A stretch of 64,000 nucleotides of DNA from Microcoleus sp. bin38.metabat.b11b12b14.051 (lineage in GTDB: Bacteria; Cyanobacteriota; Cyanobacteriia; Cyanobacteriales; Microcoleaceae). Below are positions 39,971 through 49,145 of the stretch, one piece after another. Every line of letters begins with the position of its first letter. Position 1 is the stretch's first letter. Under the pieces are notes generated by a model, which saw only the letters and a program-made list of their open reading frames with translations, did no database searches and was not told the DNA's origin. The stretch covers positions 1 through 64,000 of the forward strand of contig NZ_JAAFKD010000017.1 in the NCBI RefSeq assembly GCF_013299165.1, read 5' to 3'. Made by a program: the position numbers and the translations under genes.

Positions 39971-40260
39971 GTTCGTAGTGAGGACTTTAGTCCGCATAAA
40001 TCACAGGACTAAAGTCCTCACTACAAACCTGTTCGTAATTAGGACTTTAGTCCGCATAAATCACAGGACTAAAGTCCAGGTTCGTAGTGAGGACTTTAGT
40101 CCGCATAAATCACAGGACTAAAGTCCTCACTACAAACCTGTTCGTAATTAGGACTTTAGTCCGCATAAATCACAGGACTAAAGTCCTCACTACAAGCCTG
40201 TTCGTAATTAGGACTTTAGTCAAGCGTCATGGATGCGGACTAAAGTCCTCACTACGAACC
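39971..40260. repeat. Five GGACTTTAGTCC hairpin units
   Basis: Five consecutive 58-60-bp units GTTCGTAGTGAGGACTTTAGTCCGCATAAATCACAGGACTAAAGTCC..., with alternating GTAGTGAGG and GTAATTAGG versions, occupy the whole spacer between DUF4436 and the carotenoid oxygenase stop. Tandem copies differ by few bases, so amplification is recent. The region 39899-39970 has no feature. Confidence 0.85.
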
Positions 40261-41914: not shown

Positions 41915-43366
41915 TCAACTATCAACTCTGCGGCTTTCGGGAATTGATGTCGGTACTAAGTCGGGAAAGTATTCGGGCATGAAATGCTGTCCGCCCGGTT
42001 TGGCACAGCCGAGTTCTGGTTCTAATACTGGGAGAGATTGTTGGTAGTTTGGATCGCCACTTTCTGCACTGTCAGCGGGTAGCCAATTTAAGAAGGGGAG
42101 GGGTAGAAGTGTGGAGAGGTTGGTGATGACTACTAGCAGCCAGAGGTAGTCGAAATTGCGATCGGTAATTCCCAGCCAGTGAGTTAAAATTGCACCGCCT
42201 TCGTAGGAAATAAGTCCTGCTAAATTGCTGACTGACATCAATACTGCAAATAGTGTTGCTTCGACGCCGGGGGGACACAACCGTGCGGAGAGTACCAGCA
42301 CCGGCATATAGGCAATTTGTCCGATTACTGTTAGGATGAGGCTGTCTCCAATGCTGAACCACTGGTCGTCAATTCCTAATGCTCGGTTGGCATGAGTTAC
42401 TAATAGTAACGTTGTCATGCCTAAAGCTGTGGCAATGACTGTTGACCAACCAAAAATTACTCGAAATGGAATTGCTTTGAGGTAGCGTTGAAACAGCCAG
42501 ATTCCTACTAGCGCGGCTATGCTGGTGACAAGGCGCACTCGACCGAGAAATTCTGGTTGAAAGCCTAATTCGTTGGTGGTGAAAAAGAAGAAGGCGGAGT
42601 CTGAGCTTGGGGTGGCTTGCCACAGGAATAGAAAGGCGGTGGGCAGCCAGATGGTTTTTTGGGTAACAGCTTCCCGCAGTTTTTTTACTTGGTCTTTGAC
42701 TGTGGCAAAGTCAGTTTTTTTGTAGATTTTCTCTTCGGTAATTAACCAGGCTGTTGCTGATACAATGAGCGGAAAAGATGCGGTGATCAAAAAGATGGTG
42801 TGGGTGCTGAAGTGTTGCAGCAGGGAACCACTGAGGTAGGCGGTGATTAGTCCGCCGATCGCAGATGCACCCCAAGATAATGATTGCAGGGAACCGGCAT
42901 CGGTAACGGTTTCTTTTCTCGCTCTCTCTACCACTAGGGAGTCGGCGATTACGTCGCTGACTGCGAGGGATAGGGAACTAAGGGCGATCGCCCCTGTAGC
43001 GGCTAACGGTGTGTGTACAATTGTTGCGAGGCTCACCCATGCTGCGGTTCCTAACAGCCCGGAGAGGACGATGTAAGGCCGTCTCCGATAGCCGAATATG
43101 GGCAAGCCATCGGACATGAAGCCAAATAGGGGCTTGATAATCCAAGGTAGGGCGACGACGCCCAGCATTGCTGAGACTTCGGCGGGACTCATGCCGAGTT
43201 CGTCTTTCAGGAAGAAGCTGACGGCTAAGCGGGCTAGTCCGAGAATGCCTTGGACGAAGTAAATCAGTAAGATGGCTATGAGTTCCGGGGTTGGCTCATT
43301 CCCGAAGAATACTTTTTCTTTTAAAGATTCTTTGAGTTTGCTGGCGCCAGAGGGGGAAAGGAGCAT
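41915..43366 (-). CDS. Folate-biopterin transporter (FBT/BT1) family MFS protein
   Basis: The 483-residue protein has about twelve membrane segments. FBT marks are PELIAILLIYFVQGILGLARLAVSFFLKDELGMSPAE at the N-terminus, WIIKPLFGFMSDGLPIFGYRRRPYIVLSG, and DVIADSLVVERAR. The Synechocystis member transports folates (established for slr0642). It is monocistronic here, with an unusual RNA element upstream on the other strand. Confidence 0.85.
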   Translation of the reverse strand: MLLSPSGASKLKESLKEKVFFGNEPTPELIAILLIYFVQGILGLARLAVSFFLKDELGMSPAEVSAMLGVVALPWIIKPLFGFMSDGLPIFGYRRRPYIVLSGLLGTAAWVSLATIVHTPLAATGAIALSSLSLAVSDVIADSLVVERARKETVTDAGSLQSLSWGASAIGGLITAYLSGSLLQHFSTHTIFLITASFPLIVSATAWLITEEKIYKKTDFATVKDQVKKLREAVTQKTIWLPTAFLFLWQATPSSDSAFFFFTTNELGFQPEFLGRVRLVTSIAALVGIWLFQRYLKAIPFRVIFGWSTVIATALGMTTLLLVTHANRALGIDDQWFSIGDSLILTVIGQIAYMPVLVLSARLCPPGVEATLFAVLMSVSNLAGLISYEGGAILTHWLGITDRNFDYLWLLVVITNLSTLLPLPFLNWLPADSAESGDPNYQQSLPVLEPELGCAKPGGQHFMPEYFPDLVPTSIPESRRVDS

Positions 43367-43518
43367 TTGAGCAATATTTCTTAATGAATCTCAATATTTA
43401 TAACACATTCTTTAATGATTTGCCCGGGCTGTGGCTGGTGAGATGCCAGAGTAGCGGGGAACTGGCAGCGGGTATACAATAATTGTGGTTAGCTGAAATT
43501 AAACTATGTTTTGTAGCC

Positions 43519-43755
43519 GTCAGGAACTCAGGTCTAAAGACACTGAGCTTGCAAGAGTAATCGAGTAAGCTATTCTGACCAGCCTAAGACTTTCGAGGTC
43601 TACGTTATTCGGGTCACGATACCGGAGAATGCGACGCTAGTTTTCCGCTCTATCGCCAGTAGTTAAACAGTCTTAAAGTCACTGAGACAGTGCTCCTAGC
43701 CTAACAAGCCCTTATAACATTGACCGACAAGCGAACATTACCCGCAAGGGAGGCC
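43519..43755 (+). ncRNA. Structured RNA resembling HEARO / IscB omega-RNA, nuclease gene missing
   Basis: The stretch opens with a three-way junction: GTCAG (43519-43523) pairs with CTGAC (43575-43579) around a CTCAG/CTGAG hairpin and a GCTTGC/GTAAGC hairpin. Next come CAGCCTAAGACTTTCGAGG, a CGG/CCG helix, a CACTGAGACAGTG hairpin (43680-43692) and finally CGCAAGGGAGG (43743-43753). The segment AGCCTAAGACTTTCG and the closing GGAGG before an ATG (43773) resemble the IscB omega-RNA I remember from OgeuIscB. No IscB frame follows; the short frame from 43773 has no RRXRR, RuvC or HNH feature. Identity is inferred, not searched. Confidence 0.5.
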
Positions 43756-43956
43756 CAACAAAGGCAACCATTATGCGATCGCGGATTGTGAAGCTTGAAA
43801 TGGTAATTGTCCCATTGAGAGTACATTACAAAAGTACACGAGAGCCAAGCAATCCCAAGGCGGTAATGGAAAGATTCACGGTGGTTAAAACCACCCGTGT
43901 CGTTTCCCTCTCCGAGGCTCAAGCCACGCTCGTTTCCCACTTACCGAGTTTTTTTT

Positions 43957-44430
43957 ATGAAAGCAGAAATTAGAATTATTTCTCTGGCAGTTGCTTGGAT
44001 TTTAGGATTGGGGGCTAATGTAGCGTTAGCTTTACCTGTTGCTAATCCGCAAGGTGATTATCCTGGGCCAGTGAGACAGCGGGGGAACAGACAAGTGAAT
44101 TGGGTGGTTGTTGACTCGGATTCTAGGTTGAACTGTCGGATGGCTGAGAGATTTCAATCCGTTTCTGTGGATGCCCTTGATGCACCGGATGAGTTGTTTG
44201 AAAGGAATAAACACAATGTTTCTCAGTGGCCTGTGGTGACGACTTTTCGCCGGGGAAAACGCTTGCAAGCGGTGACTGGAAATAATGCCAATCAAATTAT
44301 GATTGCTGATTCTCAGGGTAAACCTTGGTTGCCGATTTCCACAGATAAGGGTAATTGTTTTGTGCGGGCTAACAGCCGTTTTATTAAGCCGATTCGGGAA
44401 AATCCTACTACTTTAGAACCTTTGGAATAA
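43957..44430 (+). CDS. Secreted protein of unknown function
   Basis: The 157-residue protein has a signal peptide (MKAEIRIISLAVAWILGLGANVALA) followed by a beta-rich domain with VNWVVVDSDSRLNCRMA, WPVVTTFRRGKRLQAVTGN and GKPWLPISTDKGNCFVRANSRFIKP, the pattern of a bacterial SH3-like secreted domain with two cysteines. Similar small secreted proteins are common in cyanobacteria and uncharacterised. The start is ATG 43957. Confidence 0.7.
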   Translation: MKAEIRIISLAVAWILGLGANVALALPVANPQGDYPGPVRQRGNRQVNWVVVDSDSRLNCRMAERFQSVSVDALDAPDELFERNKHNVSQWPVVTTFRRGKRLQAVTGNNANQIMIADSQGKPWLPISTDKGNCFVRANSRFIKPIRENPTTLEPLE

Positions 44431-49015: not shown

Positions 49016-49145
49016 AGGTTCGTAGTAAGGACTTTAGTCCTCGGGAAGAAGGACTGAAGTCCTCACTACGAACCTATTTTTTCGTGAGGTTCGTAGTGAG
49101 GGCTTTAGTCCTCGGGAAGAAGGACTGAAGTCCTCACTACGAACC
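49016..49145. repeat. Two 72-bp GGACTTTAGTCC units
   Basis: Two near-identical 72-bp tandem units AGGTTCGTAGTNAGGNCTTTAGTCC...GGACTGAAGTCCTCACTACGAACCTATTTTTTCGTG lie in the spacer 48836-49203. A third partial AGGTTAG follows. Before them (48836-49015) no feature is seen. Confidence 0.8.

Follow-up and report, generated by a model that had tools for sequence, protein, structure and literature searches.

The window, a 64,000-nucleotide stretch of the Microcoleus contig C17, carries a solo HEARO insertion that we read, with a probability of roughly two in three, as a non-autonomous, guide-bearing IscB-type mobile element served in trans by the IscB of its own genome. About 33 such solo copies probably borrow a nuclease that is encoded elsewhere in the genome. 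The parts of the window element and its surroundings are collected in Table 1.

Table 1. The solo element, its parts and its insertion site (window coordinates)
Feature	Position	Strand	Basis
Complete solo element, 438 bp, without target-site duplication	43519..43956	+	empty site in relatives
Host flank, 16 nt directly 5' of the scaffold, in guide position, ACTATGTTTTGTAGCC	43503..43518	+	relatives
HEARO / IscB omega-RNA scaffold, the left end of the element	43519..43741	+	RF02033, 135.4 bits; compensatory pairs
Internal module AATGGTAATTGTCCCATTGAGAGTACATTACAAAAGTACAC..., in place of iscB	43742..43876	+	blastn, subset of solo elements
Right-end hairpin CACGGTGGTTAAAACCACCCGTG	43877..43899	+	DNA fold of 43870-43956, z -2.34
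Right-end motif TTTCCCACTTACCG (43933-43946) and T-rich terminus	43933..43956	+	29 genome matches
ATGA: target-adjacent motif (TAM) position and start codon of the downstream gene	43957..43960	+	copy junctions, empty places
Host gene, 157 aa	43957..44430	+	homologues in relatives

The identity of the scaffold was settled by the covariance model that defines the family. In a cmscan search with all Rfam families, RF02033 (HEARO) matched 43519-43741 on the plus strand over the full model (positions 1-211) with 135.4 bits, against a cut-off of 83, and E 5.7e-28; this was the sole match above the gathering score in the 64-kb window. By this test the segment belongs to the HEARO / IscB omega-RNA family, so that the preliminary description, which had recognised the RNA from short sequence blocks and proposed this model as a check, was right about its nature. 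A MAFFT alignment of the 35 over-cut-off copies of the genome displays compensatory changes at 25 of the 62 predicted pairs, a count made without phylogenetic control. Folding energy was dropped as a proof of RNA, the value for the scaffold being unexceptional (z -1.24; 20 of 200 shuffles fold equally well). Despite this ordinary energy the scaffold RNA is taken as real, on the strength of its score against the covariance model and its compensated pairs.

The RNA had originally been drawn from 43503 to 43772, with a terminal GGGAGG and a following ATG (about 43749-43775) as its end and with no IscB frame 3' of it. The absence of IscB is confirmed: a whole-genome search placed no RRXRR match on contig C17, tblastn with the genome's own IscB matched 0 residues at the window locus (L017, with 1.5 kb of downstream sequence), and the adjacent iscB ORF (RRXRR, RuvC, HNH) that distinguishes an IscB-encoding element is lacking. 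The extent has to be redrawn in part; 43503-43518 is flank in the place of a guide, the scaffold itself covers 43519-43741, and the element does not stop at the GGGAGG and ATG but continues to 43956.

These boundaries were defined by comparison with sites that lack the insertion. Among nine relatives examined, the window site is uninterrupted in eight, all of which are placeable at the gene start; the ninth (L069) gave a partial protein match only, which could not be positioned at the start of the gene, and showed no element motif. The site is likewise uninterrupted in 13 of 14 named records, a set that overlaps partly with the genomes of the nine relatives, several flanks being identical between the two sets, and the fourteenth could not be placed at the start. 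In the relatives the counterpart of the left flank, e.g. ...TTTTTTGTAGCA, leads directly into ATGAAA. Since their site is uninterrupted, 43519-43956 was inserted immediately 5' of ATGA, with no duplication of the target site, and the element sits between host flank and an ATGA that here is a start codon. Judged by the relatives, in which the corresponding bases run straight into ATGA, 43503..43518 is flank and not element; it adjoins the scaffold start at 43519 and thus occupies the guide position that the preliminary description had assigned to it. The guide of an IscB omega-RNA consists of the bases 5' of the scaffold, and the putative guide role of 43503..43518 rests on this general property. 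The window guide agrees with the relatives' flank at the same site in 6-12 of 16 positions only, so no live target for it is at hand. Allowing up to three mismatches, a genome-wide search for guide plus ATGA gave a single match, the guide beside the scaffold. The 157-aa gene that follows has closest homologues in the relatives that are 75-92% identical, and no Pfam match at E 0.001.

The genome (7.07 Mb in 64 contigs, 99.85% complete) contains 37 HEARO matches, 35 of them over the cut-off, and four RRXRR matches. Two of the latter are intact and lie on C16 and C11, where a HEARO precedes each at a distance of about 35 bases, while the third (C26) has four stops and the fourth (C29) encodes 326 aa beside a weak HEARO. 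An intact IscB is therefore adjacent to only two of the over-cut-off HEAROs, and the other 33 of 35 are solo copies. With 470 bits against a cut-off of 175, the C16 IscB matches NCBIfam guided_IscB; it carries RRXRR and HNH, and has IscB proteins as its best solved relatives. The IscB-bearing elements, at C16:18803-20400 and C11:24480-26075, are about 1.6 kb in length. Both further copies of the RNA and an IscB elsewhere in the genome, for which the preliminary description had proposed to search, are thus present, as its picture of a solitary omega-RNA with a distant IscB had anticipated; with the HEARO match and these copies, two of the three conditions that it had named for its own refutation are excluded. 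It had overlooked the right end, the junction at the start codon and the family of copies. Across 24 genomes of the same genus, this one included, at least 343 HEARO matches (a lower bound; 2 to 42 per genome) stand against 106 RRXRR matches, counted at E 0.001 or better with fragments and short relatives included. As side observations, group II intron matches occur near the stop-bearing IscB copy on C26 (L033:2248-2327) and downstream of a relative's HEARO (L169:160-237), and two genomes (L183 and L179) have the same guide and flank together with IscB, the similarity breaking off early in one and the frame being whole in the other.

Solo and IscB-bearing elements have their right end and ATGA in common. 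The motif TTTCCCACTTACCG was matched 29 times in the genome with at most one mismatch, against once for the reversed control pattern, and 28 of these matches fall at HEARO copies, among them the two IscB-bearing elements (the exception is C8:222547). A recognised right end is followed directly by ATGA in 33 of the 35 over-cut-off copies, 31 of them solo and two with IscB; L002 is without a recognisable right end and L025 reads ACGA. A second right-end type, type B (GGACGGGGTTTC...CCCATTTTTCTG and similar), is found in four solos (L009, L011, L027, L038), for which the genome holds no full-length type-B IscB; by eye, the 326-aa relative on C29 is the only one with such an end. Copies in relatives were sampled as the best-scoring 80 of at least about 307 same-genus matches, a set that is not random. 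IscB similarity is present in 16 of these 80 and absent in 64, and a regular expression found a right end with ATGA in 50 of the 64 solos, the other 14 being short contigs, GTGA ends or ends that the expression missed. It overlooks ATGA or GTGA ends visible by eye at L119, L126, L138, L150, L162 and L170, and puts the junction of L178 about 20 nt too far. An end at GTGA instead of ATGA was seen by eye in the IscB-bearing L118, L136, L155 and L158 and in the solos L119 and L162. Because the ends are common to both forms and iscB is absent, the window element is a non-autonomous derivative of an IscB-encoding element. By blastn its filler module occurs in 41 of 98 loci classed as solo, some of which end at a contig edge, versus none of 19 with IscB similarity, which makes it a possible additional functional component of the solo elements. 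By eye the filler at 43742-43876 (GGTAATTGTCCC...AAAGTAC...) is also seen in a Dolichospermum plasmid solo element (L261:1740-1870).

The boundaries and the mobility of the solo elements are shown by two lines of evidence, precise insertion at sites that are empty elsewhere and near-identical copies at unrelated sites. The joined flanks of the 33 sites were matched to relatives across the junction, with 12 candidates scored per genome, and among the matches listed 20 empty places (19 other sites, 8 genomes) were fetched; as these were chosen from the top matches that span a junction, some of the contiguity results from the choice itself. ATGA stands directly after the junction in every one of the 20, and the 16-nt guide is present at 16 of 16 positions in 15 places and at 13-15 of 16 in five. 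Un-inserted sites recognisable by these guides thus exist in sister species. Ten solos (L013-L016, L018, L019, L023, L026, L028, L029) are 95.5-99.2% identical to one another, with a mean of 97.4%, yet their upstream flanks are unrelated (26% on average). As these near-identical copies all measure 374-375 bp, the solo form was amplified as such, and their spread over unrelated sites means that solos multiply without a nuclease of their own. A second group, linked at 90% or more, has seven members; the window copy is one of them and is 90-94% identical to the six others. At the start codon of a gene identified by eye as trigger factor, different solos, 81% identical, are present in three species (L035, L175, L168) with guides alike at 15-16 of 16 positions, and the site is empty in a fourth species (L197); this suggests recurrent insertion or replacement of one element by another.

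The alternative that survives best is an inert remnant, in which iscB was lost, the sequence is passively inherited and the omega-RNA is out of use. The window copy has indeed diverged by 6-10% from its six nearest copies, and a published Limnospira transcriptome study sets its HEARO RNAs aside as post-mobility remnants (PMC8400943). We nevertheless consider inert remnants unlikely: 31 of 33 solos retain both the right end and the ATGA junction, the pairing of the scaffold has been kept by compensation, and the ten solos that are 95-99% identical at unrelated sites argue for recent multiplication. The preliminary description had itself offered a decayed element as a second option. With both ends, a precise ATGA junction and a base-paired scaffold all kept, a solitary omega-RNA used in trans is the better fit.

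Most of the junctions coincide with the beginning of a gene. At 27 of 33 junctions the ATG begins a frame of 60 codons or more; the frames at L001, L003, L005, L011, L012 and L039 are shorter. We take the frames at L005 and L011, by eye, to be small photosynthesis subunits; the downstream genes at the junctions presumably include those for trigger factor, ribosomal L18 and lysyl-tRNA synthetase as well as gatB. A null expectation was drawn from this window alone with simple ORF picks: ATGA falls at first starts 18 times versus 114 times outside genes (13.6%), or 29 times on a lenient count (20.3%). Against these rates the observed 27 of 33 has a binomial P of 2e-18 and 6e-14, respectively, with copies treated as independent, and the start-codon excess is therefore strong. 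In the relatives, among the best 80 of at least about 307 copies, 39 of the 50 solos with a junction reach 60 codons. Outside the order, the end of an IscB element on Trichormus plasmid C coincides precisely with the start annotated for parB, and a Dolichospermum plasmid carries a solo of the same build whose right end meets an ATGA some 60 nt ahead of the annotated start and not on it.

Such an excess over the expected 13.6-20.3% is also what would be seen if the element were a domesticated 5'-UTR, whose RNA regulates the downstream gene as a riboregulator or promoter donor and whose position at the start codon is explained by selection. This reading is improbable, as the window site is unoccupied in every relative placed, 19 other sites are empty in at least one relative, and the downstream genes are unrelated. 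Element and downstream gene start are held in common at only three of the 33 mapped sites, and at one more by flank alone, in comparison with the best 80 relatives' copies. In addition, the bias is explained equally well by the purging of harmful insertions together with a need for transcription through the guide. An Rfam false positive or some other structured RNA, with which the ordinary folding energy would agree, has a negligible chance of being correct and is counted as refuted by the whole-model score of 135.4 bits, the 35 over-cut-off copies and the two of them that lie directly upstream of intact iscB.

IscB and TnpB work with a 5' guide and a 3' TAM, and their cleavage of the empty site is followed by repair. 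For the mobile element that we favour, we infer that a host promoter drives transcription, that IscB is loaded in trans, that DNA is cleaved and repaired, and that a transposase takes part. The element is built from an IscB omega-RNA left end, a short filler in the position of iscB, and the right end of IscB-bearing elements. Transcription from the host gene's own promoter would yield one RNA that runs from the guide flank through the scaffold into the mRNA. Because no sigma-70-like promoter was found in 43360-44000 (0 versus 1.0 expected in shuffles), this read-through is something we infer; an alignment of the copies' upstream regions, with unrelated flanks mixed in, gave only a weakly conserved A/T-rich stretch. 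IscB from C16 or C11 would take up the solo omega-RNA in trans, and the complex would target only the un-inserted form of the site (guide plus ATGA), because insertion parts the guide from ATGA. The targets cut would be empty copies left after excision and un-inserted alleles, either on a sister chromosome or on DNA entering the cell, where repair would copy the element back, so that it would be both kept and spread in the manner of a gene drive. To reach new sites, the element would use a Y1 transposase that an IS200/IS605 element supplies, again in trans. Two reports describe activity of DtIsrB, an IscB relative, on TTGA and ATGA TAMs (PMC9581776) and a gene drive on plasmids by the TnpB of IS200/605 (PMC11870625). 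More tentatively, and at somewhat less than even odds, one or two IscBs in these cyanobacteria would serve the approximately 33 dispersed solos, mostly docked at host start codons where the guide would be written by the host promoter, as a distributed, trans-acting RNA-guided gene-drive network in which ATGA steers insertion into 5'-UTRs in the orientation that transcribes the guide.

A transposase was sought among the 10 Y1 matches in the genome. No Y1 (TnpA) match lies on contig C17, no exact end motifs occur at the 10 Y1 loci, and none of these loci holds an element with both HEARO-element ends and TnpA. By blastn, the Y1 gene at C7:197006 (L042) adjoins a 58-nt stretch resembling the right end of L158, an IscB element from a relative (88% identity, E 3e-15), and L003, L012, L022 and other right ends have a 26-29-nt hairpin stretch in common with it at 92-93%. 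This right-end-like stretch is antiparallel to tnpA and, by eye, is flanked by GTCA, not ATGA; a tnpB-like frame apparently lies 3' of tnpA, again by eye. At C6:177517 (L046) the tnpA contains a stop, and a type-B-like end (E about 1e-6) with the flank GTAA comes after it. Neither place has the omega-RNA left end in common with the HEARO elements, and at C7:197006 the similarity is to one end only. Three weak tblastn matches at Y1 loci were to L143, L158 and L169. As controls, reversed ends gave 0 matches and 18 window pieces gave 8 short matches, the best with E 3.9e-4; control matches of 18-32 nt were set aside, as were the matches to L047, which are short and lie in common palindromes. The Y1 genes at C7:197006 and C6:177517 are possible candidates for transposases acting in trans, a lead and not a proof. 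In general, TnpA is linked to no more than a few of the HEARO nucleases (PMC9755519).

A 21-bp repeat (ACTAAAGTCCTCACTACGAAC and variants) occurs at 21 places in the window between 2739 and 49902, several of them in inverted pairs, with 0 expected in shuffles; examples are 39971-39991 (-), 40008-40028 (+), 49018-49038 (-) and 49053-49073 (+), and the repeats form an interspersed palindromic family. Microcoleus phage My-WqHQDG (OR578707.1, L263) has a HEARO of 129 bits just upstream of an unnamed CDS, and IscB relatives are encoded at 29 viral-contig loci (L232-L260); phages may carry the nuclease between hosts.

Like the HEARO RNA (RF02033), which is the IscB omega-RNA, the window copy gives a full-length model match and has a 5' flank in guide position and an ATGA beside the insertion; unlike it, there is no HNH/IscB ORF 3' of the RNA. 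With the C16 and C11 elements it shares the omega-RNA left end and the right-end motif followed by ATGA, but those contain iscB, whereas the window element measures 438 bp and has a filler that is absent from IscB-bearing copies. Non-autonomous IS200/IS605 derivatives, which are MITE-like and associated with palindromes, are also short and multi-copy, with a terminal hairpin and no target-site duplication, and they too are without a transposase or nuclease gene. What sets the window element apart from them is its guide RNA, for which the insertion flank would supply the guide. The TnpB gene drive of IS200/605 (PMC11870625) would be comparable in its insertion-site-recorded guide and its attack on un-inserted copies, and would differ in that the nuclease for the window element would act in trans.

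The number of solos in one genome, the 20 empty places with guides retained at 13-16 of 16 positions, the amplification of the solo form and the start-codon excess are documented here. The case is mainly a well-documented further example, since solitary HEAROs and insertion at ATGA or GTGA have already been reported: ORF-less HEAROs, standalone omega-RNAs and ATGA/GTGA integration are reportedly described in Weinberg 2009, Altae-Tran 2021 and Meers 2023. The start-codon excess is unusual, and a literature search covering work other than the original HEARO and omega-RNA papers found no published description of solo omega-RNAs at start codons. Guide RNAs outnumber intact nuclease genes by more than 10:1 in this genome and sit apart from them, providing a natural, countable system in which a possible trans action of IscB omega-RNAs is therefore directly testable. 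The same system makes it directly testable whether guide-recorded cleavage of empty sites keeps non-autonomous elements alive, and the overlap of TAM and start codon would account for the way in which such elements get their guide transcribed and yet spare coding sequence.
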